Below are positions 54,784 through 63,474 of a DNA stretch of 64,000 nucleotides, piece by piece. Position numbers and translations under genes: made by a program. The number at the start of each line of letters is the position of its first letter. Positions within the stretch are counted from its first letter, which is position 1. The stretch spans positions 19,848,345 to 19,912,344 of the forward strand of contig CM073326.1 in NCBI GenBank assembly GCA_037043015.1, read 5' to 3'. Origin of the DNA: Bryum argenteum. Lineage: Eukaryota; Streptophyta; Bryopsida; Bryales; Bryaceae. The notes beneath the pieces were generated by a model that ran no database searches, was not told the origin of the DNA, and saw only the letters and a list, made by a program, of their open reading frames with translations.

Positions 54784-55153
54784 TTAACCCTTAAACGCCC
54801 AAGCAAGCCCGAGGGGCATGATTCCAACAGAATCTCCTCTGTAGCTCTCACTGTACTCAACATTTCACTTATATTTTGATGTCAAACTGGTCACCTTCTT
54901 CTAATGCATTCAAAAAGTGAAATTTCACAATTCAAATCACAATTTGTATGAATGATTTTGTGCTTTGAAAGGATTGTGGTAGGTAGGTTGGGGTTATACA
55001 TAACCTTGTAGGAGGTTGCAAGCTCACCATTGATTGGTCAGTTCATGATGCCCAAGTTCAAAAAGTGCACTATTCATGATGCCCAAGTCCAAAAGATGCT
55101 GTGATCCAATTTTGGGCTGCCCGTTTCAGACCCCATGGGCGTTTAAGGGTTAA
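54784..55153. mobile_element. TTAA element, short family C (370 bp)
   Basis: Both ends read inward TTAACCCTTAAACGCCCA, a perfect 18-base inverted pair, flanked by nothing but the terminal TTAA. The interior holds an imperfect internal duplication (TCATGATGCCCAAGT at about 55025 and 55074). Non-coding. Confidence 0.8.
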
Positions 55154-57491: not shown

Positions 57492-58300
57492 GATCAGCGG
57501 TTGCAGCCTTCATATTATATCTGATTCTTTTTAAAGAGATTCACATGTCTCTGAAACTAGATTCCCCTCGTAAATTAGGTTCCACTCGTCGGCCCACAGA
57601 AAGGAACTTTTAGCTCAAATTCAAACGCAGGTTTAGAGTCGACCTTGCGCTTCTGTATAATGATAGAAATTATTCTGTTGAGGTCATAGATAGAATTTTT
57701 CTGCTAAGTGGAACAGTTTTGTGCGGTCCGTCTTGCAAGACCACCATCTGTTCCATCTGATAACGAAACAAGGACTCTTCTTATCATCAAACTGCCCTCG
57801 CTCCGTGTCTACTCCGTTAGTAGTCATATAGCTGACACTCAAAGCATTTATTTCTGATACCTCTGCAGTTTACACCAGATTTCCTATTTCCGTAATTGAA
57901 CCCTAGGCTTTACCTCAAATTCACCCTCTTTTCAGAGCAAAGTTGAACATTTTGAATGTATGATGTCAGTTTAGAATGAAACTGCAGGATATGGTACTGC
58001 ACCTAACTTGAACAAGTCCATGTGTAACAATTTTTAACATTTCTAAATACCTCAATGTTTGTGAGATCATAATGTACAAAGCTACTTGGTAGTAAGCCAA
58101 CTCTAAATATGTTCAGAAGTGTTGAGGCACTGAGGATCTTTGAATTCTTGTTCCTAAGTGTATACATCATGTTTCCCCTCATAAAATATACTAAATCTTG
58201 AGAGGACAGGGTGATGGTTATTGGCATCTACTATGGATGGAGGTTTTCAAATTATCTTTAGATTAGTTTTGAACCTTGAGAGCAAACAACACCTAAAATA
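57492..58300. other. 3' region of the exostosin gene, nothing further recognised
   Basis: Probable 3'UTR followed by AT-rich spacer. The TA at 58299-58300 is the left target-site duplication of the transposon. Confidence 0.4.
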
Positions 58301-58326
58301 CCGTAGCTTCATAGCAGATTCGGCAC
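58301..58326 (+). repeat. Left terminal inverted repeat of the DDE_1 transposon
   Basis: Reads CCGTAGCTTCATAGCAGA at its outer end, preceded by TA. Three mismatches to the right repeat. Confidence 0.9.
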
Positions 58327-58670
58327 TTAACTGCCTAATAATTAATTAAAGTGGACGAACGTGGTTCGGCACTTCAAAATTCAATAATTTAAAATTCGGC
58401 AATTATTAAAATATATTTACCATGATTTCGGCATTCATTCAAGAATCCGTTACACTTTCATTAATTATTAGGCAGTCTGTTATTTTATCATCTATGGTGG
58501 TGGCTCTCTTCTCTCTCAATGTTTGCCCTAATCTTCTTTGCTTTTCATTGTTTTGAACTTCCTCTCATTTGCTTTGGTTTCACCATCTGTTGGTTTGATT
58601 TGCCTTGTGTTTTGAGTACTTTTTCCTTCTACGTTGAATTTCGCTGAGGCAATAGTTTGCAAGAGCAAAA

Positions 58671-60500
58671 ATGGCGAGACAAAAGACTTTAAGCAACATG
58701 TTCACACCTATTAACAAAGAGGAGTTGCAAGTGTTGGTGGAGCGTGATTTTGATGCATTGAGCACTAAGTTGGAGGAAGAGAAGGCGATGGAGAGTGCAA
58801 TTGAGAAGCGATCAGTTGGGAGACCTAAGAAGGATGTGGAAGTTGTCTTGCTCACGCCAAAAGAAGAGGACATTGGGAAAACTTCTTCAAGGAAAGTGAA
58901 GGTTAGAGGAAGTTATACCAATTGGTTCTTACCTTCTTTATGGGGACCTATTCATGCTGCCATGAAACAACACAAGAATTACACTTCTACTTTGCATTAT
59001 TTGAAGCTTAAACACAAAGAGCCAGGCAAGAGTTCTAGTGTTTATGATTCACTTAGTAGAGGGACACTATGGGATTGGTTTACTCCTACTGGAGAGTTGA
59101 GAGAAGGAGTCAAGAGAAAAATTGATAATGAGACTCCCTTCCTAGAAAGTTATCAACATCGCTATGTTCTTGCAAATCATCCAATTCTTCAAGAAGAAAT
59201 TATAGAGATGTTACAAGCTCATCGCGATGCTGGTCAACCATTGTTTGCATCTACAATTCGAAATAGGATAAGATGTCTTATCCGCAAAAAAGAGCCTACC
59301 TTACTAACAGAAGAGGGTAGAACGGGTTTCAAAGTTAGTTTAACATGGGTGCGTGATTTCGTAAAATGCAATTTGAATTGGAGTTATAGAGTAGCCACAA
59401 GCGCTGCCAGGAAACTTCCAATTGATTGGGAGGAACAAGGTTTAAAAATGGCTCATCGTGTAGCTTACCTTGTCAAAGCCCATTCTCTCCCACCACAACT
59501 TGTTGTGAATACTGACCAAACCGGCATACATCTTGTTCCTACCGGTGGAGCACATACATGGGCTCGAAAGGGGTCAAAACATGTTTTGGTACATGGGATT
59601 GAAGACAAAAGACAAATTACCGTATCCGTTTCCTCCTCAGCCAATGGAGATTTACTCCCCTTCCAACTTGTCTTTACTGGTCTGACGGAAAGGAGTTTAC
59701 CCCCTCGAAATAGCGGAAGAATTTTATGTGAAAATGCCGGTTGGCATCTCACATGTTCTAGCAATCATTGGTCAAACATGTCCACATGCAAAGACTTTGT
59801 GAGTCAAATTCTAGAACCCTATAGAGAAGAGCAAATCAAATTGTTAAACCTTCCAAACGATTCTAAATTGATTTGGCTTATTGATTGTTGGAGTGTTCAT
59901 AAGTCTAAAGAGTTTATTTCATGGGTTAGAATTAACCATCCTCAAATACTTCTCCTTTTCATTCCGGCGAATTGCACTAGCATTTTTCAACCTGCAGATG
60001 TCATAATCCAACGGCCTTTGAAGCATGCATTTAGGCAAGAGTTTGACAACTACAGCTCAGACGACATTGATAAGCAACTTGAGGAGAAAAGCGGAAAAGA
60101 CGTGAAGATAGATATGAAAATGTCTACACTCAAACCATTACTATGTGGATGGTTGTTCAAGGCATGGGAACATGTCAATAAGCCCAATATGATTAGGGTT
60201 GGTTGGTCCCAATGTGGGTTACTTAGAGCCTTCGATTCAAGTTTTCAAGTGGAAGCAATGGATCAGAACATGCAAATTTCACTATTTGCTACGGAAGAAA
60301 GTCTTCAACAAGAAGAAAAGATTGACAAAGATGAGGACATAGATACAGATGATAGCATTGAGAAAGTAATGGAAGATTGTTTGGTAAGAGTGGCAGAAAT
60401 TGCCACTTCAAACAAGATCTTCAGCATGTCAACTCTAAAGAGCAACGCTCGTAAAAGGTTTGTTTCTGCAACACACAGTAAACACACTTTAGAAATGTGA
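58671..60500 (+). CDS. DDE_1 superfamily transposase, uninterrupted
   Basis: 609 residues in one open frame. An AT-hook-like VGRPKK lies at residues 49-54, then a predicted helix-turn-helix region. The catalytic core shows D282 (VVNTDQTGIHLVP), D405 (IWLIDCWSVHKS) and D443 (SIFQPADVIIQRPLK), with 37 residues between the last two, the DDD form of pogo-type enzymes. It would cut and rejoin the element ends at TA targets. A possible extra 3' exon (acceptor gttgcag at 60583) would replace the last residues. No stop or shift is seen, so the element may be active or recently active. Confidence 0.9.
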   Translation: MARQKTLSNMFTPINKEELQVLVERDFDALSTKLEEEKAMESAIEKRSVGRPKKDVEVVLLTPKEEDIGKTSSRKVKVRGSYTNWFLPSLWGPIHAAMKQHKNYTSTLHYLKLKHKEPGKSSSVYDSLSRGTLWDWFTPTGELREGVKRKIDNETPFLESYQHRYVLANHPILQEEIIEMLQAHRDAGQPLFASTIRNRIRCLIRKKEPTLLTEEGRTGFKVSLTWVRDFVKCNLNWSYRVATSAARKLPIDWEEQGLKMAHRVAYLVKAHSLPPQLVVNTDQTGIHLVPTGGAHTWARKGSKHVLVHGIEDKRQITVSVSSSANGDLLPFQLVFTGLTERSLPPRNSGRILCENAGWHLTCSSNHWSNMSTCKDFVSQILEPYREEQIKLLNLPNDSKLIWLIDCWSVHKSKEFISWVRINHPQILLLFIPANCTSIFQPADVIIQRPLKHAFRQEFDNYSSDDIDKQLEEKSGKDVKIDMKMSTLKPLLCGWLFKAWEHVNKPNMIRVGWSQCGLLRAFDSSFQVEAMDQNMQISLFATEESLQQEEKIDKDEDIDTDDSIEKVMEDCLVRVAEIATSNKIFSMSTLKSNARKRFVSATHSKHTLEM

Positions 60501-60854
60501 TTATTTAATTTGCATTAGTGAAGTGGTTGAATGCAAATGACTTCTCAAGTTTTGATATAGTATTTCTTACCTACTGTTGCAGACAAATCCCAAATGTGGA
60601 AGCCAATTCAACAAGGATAAAACTTCACGCACATCAAAAAAGCTAGCATTTTTGCAAGTAGCAGATCTGCAAAACAATGAGGAAAAGGTGAGTACCTATA
60701 TTCCCATAACACTTTCAAAAGCTATTATGCATGGATATTTCTCACGTACAGTACTTTGACCTGAGTATGCAACAGAAACTTGTAAGGTAAGGCTCTTCTC
60801 TTTTAAGTACCATGGGAGCAATTCACGAAGTTAGTTGCTTTGACTGTCTTGATC

Positions 60855-61117
60855 AATATCCTCCTCGCACATGATCTGCTTTCGGAAAGGATCCTCGTCC
60901 CTGATAAGGCTCGGAATTGTCCATGAAACCAACAAGTGGACGGACTTGCTCCCACCTGCCACAAACATTTAAAGAAGTGTTCCATAAGCCGCTTTAGCGA
61001 GAGAGAGACAGAGAAACAGAGAGCAATAAAGGAGGTCGTCGTCGTTACCTTCTTTTACAGCCTGCTCACAGCGTTTCTCATACTGGGATCGAATGTTGGG
61101 TTCCAAGCCTTCAACAA
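60855..61117 (-). pseudogene. Unidentified captured exon-like fragments inside the transposon
   Basis: Two minus-strand blocks with splice borders (61117-61049, donor GTAACG; and from 60955 downward, acceptor tggcag) read EPNIRSQYEKRCEQAVKE and SKSVHLLVSWTIPSLI. Their phases agree. I do not recognise the parent gene. Confidence 0.35.
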
Positions 61118-61404
61118 CTGCTGTTGATACTTGACTTCACTCTTTCCAATAAATTCCGCCTGCACATTAGTTATCTCAGGCATCAAACATCTGCAGAGTC
61201 ATACAACCTACTGATAAAGGCTTAGGGATGCAGAGAGCGAACTATGTGGATATCAGACAATAAACTTTTCACCGATTATCAGAATTGCACACTAGTATGC
61301 CTAGCTAGAGAGTTTGCAAAATAATGAAAGAAGGACCAGATGAGGACAACTGACGATATACTGATAGAGCAGATTCCATTCCAATGTCCACAGAACTCAC
61401 TAAC

Positions 61405-61504
61405 CTTCTTGACGCCTGTAGATATTATCAGCTGAGATCCGGTGAACCAAGAGAGTCTGATTGTCCTCTTCGTCGATAACGACCAAGCCTTCTGCATCAG
61501 AACG
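61405..61504 (-). pseudogene. Captured exon of a SMEK/PP4R3 (protein phosphatase 4 regulatory subunit 3) gene
   Basis: A 100-bp block with acceptor gctacag and donor G|GTTAGT encodes GLVVIDEEDNQTLLVHRIS followed by ADNIYRRQE, the WH1/EVH1 domain signature of SMEK proteins. The next SMEK exon (DTIISWRDPE) is absent nearby, so it is a lone captured exon, not a gene. It lies inside the transposon, antisense to the transposase. Retained splice sites point to capture of genomic DNA rather than cDNA. Confidence 0.75.
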
Positions 61505-61772
61505 CTGTAGCAAGCCAGCGCAAAATTGTTAGAAGTCATGGCTAAACCTTGGAGCTTACAATGGTCCAAAATTGCACTCTCTGTAAGCAATAAGCCTGAT
61601 GATCAACTCAGATCCATACAACTAGTTTTCATTAGCAGAAAAAAGTAGGAAAACTGTCCAGTGCGAGTTGCTGTAACGACTCAAACTAGCTATAAAGAGA
61701 ATTCAAGGTGGAGGACTAATTTTTCTCACGCTGTAATCTTGGGTGGTGTGAAAACGTGTTGGTAGGTGATGC

Positions 61773-62056
61773 TCATGTGAAGAGATCGGTCGCCAGCAAC
61801 TTGGTTTGGTGGAAAGGCGTTTCCATATCGTCAAGCTCCTCTTTCGAAAGGTGGACTTCGAATGAAGTGATGTTGGAATCGAGGTTGGCGATTTTGGTGG
61901 TGCCTGGAATTGGAACTACGTCAGTACCTTGATGTTGTACCCATGCGAGTGCAAGCTGGTTCATTGTACAATTCATTCTCTGTAGATTTGCTTCACCCGC
62001 TCCAGTAGCTTCTTGTTCTGCTTCAAGTTCGCGCCTACCAACCGAGGAGCATTTTT
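61773..62056 (-). pseudogene. Captured fragment of an aldo/keto reductase gene
   Basis: Encodes NAPRLVGANLKQNKKLLERV, then in another frame NQLALAWVQHQGTDVVPIPG followed by TTKIANLDSNI, the C-terminal NADPH-binding part of plant ATB2/PCNT115-type reductases. The frame changes near 61980, so it cannot make a full enzyme, and the N-terminal barrel is missing. It starts after an acceptor-like ctgcag. It lies inside the transposon next to the SMEK exon. Confidence 0.8.
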
Positions 62057-62751
62057 CTGCAGTCCATTACACCCTCACTTGTCAAATTCTAAACAAATAC
62101 ACCTAAACTCTAAGTTTGCATGCAGGGGGTTTGGTTGACGGCGAGATACGCTATCAATCCACACGTAGTGTACTGAAGATCTCCTTACGTTTAGCGGCTA
62201 TGGTGGACAAGTTTCTAGAGGACGACGCTACTGACAGGAAGCGGTGACAGCTTCGGTTCGATGATGGGCTATTGAATGCAGGACAAAGTGTGAGCGATGG
62301 TGATCTCAAGCAGCAGACGCAGTGTACGTGAAGAACAATACCTGCTGCGGGGCTCGCATCTTTGAGCTCCTCCCTGCATCGTCGAGCTCCTCCCTGCGTC
62401 GTCAAGCTCCTCTCTCCGTCGTTGAGCTCCTTGCCACAGACGAAATGGGTACAAGTGAAGATCTCGAAAAACACCTTGGTTCTTATCGGCACTCGTGACT
62501 CCGAGAATTCTCTCCGCCAAGCTCCAAAACTTCCGGTTGCTTCAGCTAATTTCACGCTGCCAGGCAAGGCTCCAAGTTGCCAGCGAGGTGGCAGCTGTTG
62601 CCGTGTTTGACTTCATTTTTTTTTAATTTCGACTCTAGATTTGCAAATATTTGGATAATTCGGCATTCTATAGTTTTTGTTTAATTATATTTCGGCATGC
62701 ATGGCCAATAATTATCAAAAAAAATTAGGCACGTTCTTTTATAAATAATTT

Positions 62752-62777
62752 GTGCCAAATCTGCTATAAAGCCACGG
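62752..62777 (-). repeat. Right terminal inverted repeat of the DDE_1 transposon
   Basis: On the minus strand reads CCGTGGCTTTATAGCAGA, followed on the plus strand by TA. Confidence 0.9.
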
Positions 62778-63474
62778 TATGAGGAATTAGAGGTGAGGAG
62801 TGAACAATCTTGTTACAGTTGTGATTTCTTTAGTACATCAAAGATTTCGCTTTCACAGGGTAAACAAATAAACTAAATATGAACATGACCAAGGGCAAAC
62901 AGATTATGACCCTACTTCGTATTAGAAGTTAATGGAACACTGTTCTCTTCAATTGTTCTGTAACAATAGTTGGAACTTTTCGATGGGCACCCACCCAGAA
63001 CGGATTGTTAAATGTTTGCCCTCTGTAACATATTGGTTCTAAGAGAGTGAAGTTTAAGATATTATAATTGATGGAAAATTGGGTAACATTACCATCATCA
63101 ATAGTCAGGCTATCACCTCAAGAGTACAAGAGATATAAAGTACGTGCACCCTATCAGAGTTTATTATCAGATGAACAAGATGAAGTACAACTCGATGATA
63201 CTTTGGGTAGGATAAAACGAACAGCTATTAAGTATCGCTAACATGTTGAGGTGCCGAAGCACCACAAATCCACAATACACACCAGATAAACGTCAAGGCA
63301 GCTGATTGTTATCGGATTCATTCTCTCCTGAAGTTCGCCAATCAGTGCATATGTGCACGAGCTGCACAAGTAGAAATGCTTTTTTTATAAGACATTCTAC
63401 TTAACCCAAAAATCCGAATATCTTTAGGCTCATCCAAAGATCCCCGTCATATAGGGCAAGATGACTACGTCATA
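62778..63474. other. Spacer between the transposon and VPS25
   Basis: Includes the probable VPS25 3'UTR. No other gene seen. Confidence 0.4.

Follow-up and report, generated by a model that had tools for sequence, protein, structure and literature searches.

Cargoes made of several gene fragments with their introns are carried by Pack-MULEs and Helitrons, whose transposase and ends differ from those of the element considered here; pogo elements, a group to which Tigger belongs, have a TA duplication and a DDE_1 core among their features. Among the closest described systems are the Pack-TYPE elements of rice and maize, which are defined as non-autonomous and include, in the same superfamily as our element, the Pack-Mariner elements reported in rice, with terminal inverted repeats and host fragments inside (PMC8903248). 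Different from our element, which features a transposase frame, five donors and split donors, Pack-Mariner elements are described there as non-autonomous, with Stowaway-type ends and a fusion model for their origin (PMC8903248). Among the animal Pack-TIRs, 115 of 370 are TcMariner elements, an example being Pack-Tigger1 in gibbon, and the proposed gap filling or template switching, with microhomology or short new sequence at the joints, recalls what we observed (PMC8277862). They are mostly single-copy, with few multicopy cases, and 56.9% lie within 15 kb of the parent (PMC8277862), whereas the element described here is multicopy, resides in a plant and has several donors per element, located on several contigs. 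Transduplication by hAT and Tc1/Mariner elements has been described in the fungus Pyrenophora tritici-repentis, where the elements are likewise multicopy and contain host-type sequence, the hAT one with its own transposase, but are characterized by extra open reading frames rather than by split fragments of five loci (PMC3538342). In grapevine, captured fragments occurred in all superfamilies detected, while no Tc1/mariner element was detected there (PMC2528002), and a 2026 review states that DNA transposons may take up unlinked gene fragments via an undiscovered mechanism (PMC13317346).

The first-pass annotation of the DNA considered here, which comes from the moss Bryum argenteum, had proposed a Pack-type gene capture on a pogo-like, autonomous-looking element and had named MULEs, Helitrons and CACTA as the elements best known for capture. 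The pogo-like element, the capture and the open transposase frame were borne out by the ends, the DDE_1 match and the donors. Capture by Tc1/mariner elements, too, has already been reported (PMC8903248, PMC8277862, PMC3538342). The Pack-type label suits the host fragments between terminal inverted repeats, but it is not to be taken literally in the presence of an open frame of 609 aa, because Pack-TYPE elements are defined as non-autonomous (PMC8903248). It follows that a pipeline that files any transposase-matching element as autonomous, as the Pack-TYPE one is described to do, would leave elements of this kind uncounted (PMC8903248). In searches of one open-licence library, in which absence is weak evidence, no paper was noticed that describes pogo-like elements of bryophytes as capturing genes. 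The novelty is modest in kind, namely, a transposase-coding element with several unlinked and partly nested donors, recurring in related elements, in a moss.

The pogo-like element, its transposase and its copies

The window (the whole stretch of 64,000 nucleotides that was analysed) contains, at 58301 to 62777, a Tc1/mariner-type, pogo-like transposon of 4477 bp (4.48 kb), the features of which are collected in Table 1. In a repeat search of the window, the inverted repeats at 58298 to 58326 and 62752 to 62780 showed 90% complementarity.

Table 1. Features of the pogo-like element and donors of its captured blocks (positions in the window)
Feature	Positions	Strand	Donor locus
TA target-site duplication, left	58299..58300		
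Terminal inverted repeat of the left end, 26 bp (by eye, 3 positions differ from the right repeat)	58301..58326	+	
Transposase open reading frame, 609 aa, DDE_1	58671..60500	+	
Possible intron close to the transposase 3' end	60458..60582	+	
Captured block A (unnamed host gene, exons together with introns)	60751..61203	-	C5:15607448-15607904
Captured block B (exon of SMEK/PP4R3 including its two splice borders; within A)	61201..61627	-	C5:15793491-15793912
Captured block A' (donor A resumed)	61629..61667	-	C5:15607913-15607951
Captured block C (end of aldo/keto reductase gene, stop codon included)	61697..62094	-	C4:15102478-15102877
Captured block E (unnamed locus; exon start preceded by an apparent 3' splice border)	62102..62177	+	C3:21626327-21626402
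Captured block D (coding part of PDDEXK_6/DUF506 gene)	62178..62276	+	C3:18011438-18011536
176-bp stretch, mostly without donor	62277..62452		
Native right part, in common with the C9 copy (about 91%)	62453..62777	+	
Right terminal inverted repeat (end of native right part)	62752..62777		
TA target-site duplication, right	62778..62779		

The window transposase matched DDE_1 (PF03184) in Pfam with an E value of 3.6e-11, a domain found in all 29 of the aligned transposase proteins, and its triad (D282/D405/D443, with 37 residues separating the last two) is of the DDxD type that is also reported for the pogo family (PMC7325037). As to the N-terminal helix-turn-helix (HTH) and CENP-B-like DNA-binding domain of the pogo group, Pfam gave no hit for either in the window protein. 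Helices were predicted at residues 88 to 235, and HTH_Tnp_Tc5 appeared in 2 of the 29 aligned proteins, at best with an E value of 0.012 and 16 bits, under the cut-off of 22.2. The predicted structure (mean pLDDT 76, pTM 0.61) retrieved 17 PDB matches at E <= 0.001, corresponding to Sleeping Beauty, Metnase/SETMAR and Mos1, with TM-scores, by target, of 0.34 to 0.63 and rmsd values of 6.9 to 18.9; a sequence-profile search of the PDB with the same protein gave no relevant match. On the basis of this model, the transposase core is predicted to resemble the DDE/D RNase-H-like catalytic domains of Sleeping Beauty and Mos1. At least 102 relatives were retrieved by protein search, and, among the matches listed, the closest showed 77% identity and those with an organism name came from two fungi and from a liverwort, Calypogeia fissa (34%). 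The plant pogo members named in the survey of that family are from Selaginella and dicots only (PMC7325037).

If the possible intron at the 3' end is removed, the last residues would be swapped to give a protein of 616 aa with a stop near 60646, and 60583 to 60646 may be the last transposase exon. The start of the cargo, which the first-pass annotation had placed at 60600, has to be moved to 60751. The full open frame is confined to the window copy and is missing in the other four of the five copies, where the longest plus-strand frames are of 193 aa (C2), 360 aa (C6), 356 aa (C1) and 391 aa (C9). The replacement-to-silent ratios of the transposase, calculated from few changes, are 0.31 to 0.60 among the four copies with the same cargo and 0.34 to 0.41 against the C9 copy, in line with past constraint. 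With one open frame among five copies as its basis, the element is best called putatively autonomous.

The same cargo is present in four copies, that is, in the window, on C2, at C6:2.5Mb and on C1. The C2 and C6:2.5Mb copies contain the whole of it with the block order and joints of the window, and the C1 copy has the same cargo and order minus 61250 to 62117, as the result of an internal deletion. The flanks of the four copies differ, and TA is present on both sides in three of these four copies with both ends (window, C2 and C6:2.5Mb), the C1 copy having TA/TG. The C9 copy has lost its left end and retains TA on the right side. Since the four copies share both ends and cargo, the cargo belongs to the mobile unit, and the right-end repeat is not that of another element, an eventuality that had been contemplated at first.

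In five of the six pairs of copies, differences amount to 1.2 to 2.1% over the left 2 kb (window 58297 to 60300) versus 5.0 to 6.1% over the rest (60301 to 62779); the sixth pair, window and C1, shows 1.6% on the left and 1.4% on the right. The left non-coding part is 98.4 to 98.9% alike, approximately equal to the first part of the coding region, so that the contrast calls for more than constraint on the gene. Exchange between copies is the simpler reading, and a more similar left part would be expected if the copies serve as repair templates for one another; variation in rate could also account for it.

Donors and joints of the window cargo

As the first-pass annotation had suggested, the region from 60600 to 62600 was searched against the window's own genome (258.8 Mb in 25 contigs), and the 13 matches obtained included element copies as well as donors. 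The donors, five loci distributed over three contigs (C5, C4 and C3), explain 60751 to 62276, except for fillers of 1, 29 and 7 bp, with approximately 91 to 95% identity (A, 93%; B, 94%; C, 94%; E, 91%; D, 95%), the 39-bp A' reaching 97%. The donor of block B matched PP4R3 in Pfam (E value of 1.8e-9) and EVH1_PP4R3 below its cut-off (0.00065), and both splice borders of the SMEK/PP4R3 exon could be read by eye, while both ends of Aldo_ket_red were matched at the donor of block C. The two parent genes that had been anticipated, their borders and the fragment with both splice borders were therefore all recovered. The count of at least two host genes and one unknown was right in kind and too narrow, and the minus strand assigned to the fragments holds for A, B, A' and C, not for D and E. 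The donor of block D matched PDDEXK_6 (PF04720) and had 525 relatives in a protein search, the best two at 86% and the named ones in Ceratodon purpureus (62%) and Physcomitrium patens (49%). No Pfam domain was found at the loci of donors A and E, where intron-exon borders are visible by eye. The retention of introns in the cargo indicates that it was captured as DNA and not as spliced RNA.

As a small control, the two stretches on either side of the element (of 1491 and 1216 bp) had no match elsewhere in the genome above 79% identity; the first gave 13 weak matches at 70 to 79%, including approximately 410 bp at 74%, and the second none. For these two stretches, a general background of duplicated DNA is thereby ruled out.

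Beyond block D, 25 bp (62287 to 62311) correspond again to donor D, 100 bp past block D, with 24 of 25 bp identical; the score of this second piece was reached by none of 300 dinucleotide shuffles, and the piece is also present in the C2, C6:2.5Mb and C1 copies. A genome search with 62277 to 62452 returned element copies only and no donor, which leaves approximately 150 of the 176 bp without one. Exact 14- and 15-bp words of donors E and C in this stretch, which occur in no copy other than those of the window and C1, are suggestive at most. The window also has three tandem units of 20 bp at 62356 to 62415, in which the 15-bp word at 62399 to 62413 is an exact word of donor C. Very similar open frames starting with MKCPF lie beside three donor loci (L045, 5856 to 6380; L047, 6641 to 6919; L052, 1847 to 2167) and are probably a repeat.

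With regard to the joints, donor A is followed up to C5:15607904, where B is inserted in reverse orientation, and is resumed at C5:15607913, with 8 bp of the donor uncovered. The overlap at the A|B joint is of 3 bp; a filler of 1 bp separates B from A', one of 29 bp A' from C and one of 7 bp C from E, and E|D has none. As raw lengths, joint overlaps in the window cargo are of 0 to 3 bp. In the window cargo, 4 internal sites resembling the end repeats were counted versus a mean of 4.2 in shuffles, that is, no remnants above chance.

Different cargoes in related elements

The C9 copy is 92% identical to the window element in the transposase half and has a different cargo at the same place. This comprises 501 bp from the gene of a lectin receptor kinase (donor C3:24571746, 91%), two pieces from C3:26016980/26017372 (88%), a donor at 26.017 Mb for which the frames tried gave no match in Pfam, and two pieces from C10:366225 (80%, and 22 bp at 100%). 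The kinase piece splits the latter two, with a loss of 5 bp. Loci L025 and L028, 98% alike and approximately 65% identical to the window element, carry carbonic anhydrase gene pieces (C7:3503769, 95 and 84%) split by a piece from C7:13235070 (91%), and L025 terminates in a matching right repeat followed by TA. In three cargoes (window, C9 and L025), a captured piece is therefore interrupted by a second one at the cost of little donor sequence, the loss in L025 being of 64 bp, the first 10 of which are readable at the far joint.

The cargo of L029 includes 198 bp of C5:973069 (92%), a donor beside a saposin-type exon. L060, which is 92% identical to L029 over most of the element, is without this piece and has 45 bp where L029 has 287; the two are different insertions, and a filled and an empty allele of one site were not seen. 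The L030 group, consisting of seven similar places, has pieces from C3:2137242 (87%) and C3:2137570 (97%), which are placed within an element only by way of these seven places, the element ends not having been found. In all of these distant groups (L025/L028, L029 and L030) the cargo sits after the transposase. L026 has a short stretch after the transposase, and the insert of L027 contains an 88-bp match to C10:9639512 at 83% (with two more C10 places at 83 to 84%) and a match to C2:18617464 at 86%.

Overall, at least approximately 25 places matched the transposase part, and, in the groups as we sorted them, host-type pieces occur in five of seven (the four window-type copies, C9, L025/L028, L029 and L030), with L060 devoid of the piece of its relative and with L026/L027, the seventh group, assigned to neither kind. 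Judged by sequence, not every donor is a proven gene; donors A and E and those at C3:26.017, C7:13.235 and C3:2.137 Mb have no supporting Pfam match and are to be regarded as candidates.

A non-autonomous family of 915 to 924 bp (L053, L054 and L055) has inverted ends that are nearly of the window type, with 43 matches at approximately 40 places for the 40 of 50 candidates that were scored, and no donor gene was recognised in it. The window-type transposase might move this family. Separately, the window contains a perfect 18-bp inverted repeat (54784 to 54801 and 55136 to 55153, spacing of 334 bp), perhaps a separate small transposon; similar sequence adjoins the C9 copy where its left end is truncated (L031, near 1290 to 1308) and also sits next to the right end of L060.

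Origin of the cargo

The best explanation overall, to which we assign a probability of roughly 0.7, is that a pogo-like element took up host pieces as DNA by templated filling of breaks and then spread. Double-strand breaks would arise inside the transposase-coding element and would be filled by DNA synthesis from unlinked templates, through gap filling or switches of template that require hardly any homology or none, and repeated filling, or a return to an earlier template, would leave pieces inside pieces. The loaded element would then have transposed to at least four places, presumably by means of an active transposase. The position between the transposase and the right end would be a matter of survival, since insertions at any other place would disrupt either the gene or the ends. 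Templated break filling is suggested by the several donor contigs, the split donors, the return to donor D, the short overlaps and fillers and the absence of internal ends, and the fragments are probably passengers.

The model formulated for Pack-CACTA and other Pack-TYPE elements, in which two nearby elements are excised as one with the DNA between them, predicts an internal cargo and conserved ends, as found here (PMC8903248), and donors A and B do lie on the same contig, 186 kb apart; however, the donors are spread over three contigs, the window cargo has no end-repeat remnants above chance, and split donors with little loss are hard to produce in this way, so that we consider such a fusion quite unlikely and templated filling appears to fit better than a fusion of neighbouring insertions. 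The split donors also look like insertion into insertion, which could point to a second capturing element, a Helitron or a Pack-MULE, that inserted into the pogo-like element and then decayed. Multi-gene chimeras are typical of Helitrons, and in the window copy the 8-bp word CATACAAC occurs at both borders of block B, but it is no target duplication, since the right border in the C2 and C6 copies corresponds to donor B sequence. As the block borders are also without terminal repeats, by eye, and no free-standing chimeric cargo occurred among the best candidates of the genome matches, a second element seems unlikely.

It is possible to ask whether the cargo is kept for antisense or small RNAs that target the donor genes or influence the silencing of the element itself, given that A, B and C are antisense to the transposase and that some captured plant fragments are expressed and show signs of selection, according to a review (PMC13317346). 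Such a role is very unlikely in view of the differences of 0 to 12% among the copies, depending on the block, and of the indels by which blocks A and C have lost their frames in the window copy; these indels also led us to reject a coding role. Finally, only the chimeric look of the cargo would favour a mis-assembly or fragments lying outside the transposon, and both are ruled out, for practical purposes, by the copies elsewhere, since C2 and C6:2.5Mb reproduce the order and the joints and C1 does so in part, each within element ends.

Starting from templated break filling, we tentatively advance, with rather less than even confidence, a broader hypothesis, according to which the pogo-like clade repeatedly loads unlinked host pieces, in nested fashion, at one tolerated site. 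If true, loaded and unloaded elements would form a natural series in which to study how cut-and-paste transposons capture unlinked fragments, a process that is still unexplained. One genome offers cargoes of at least five kinds, donors that can be identified, some of them split, and a relative minus one piece, and models of capture can therefore be tested on exact joints. These elements extend a topic that has been studied mainly on non-autonomous elements to a moss and to an element whose transposase frame is retained.
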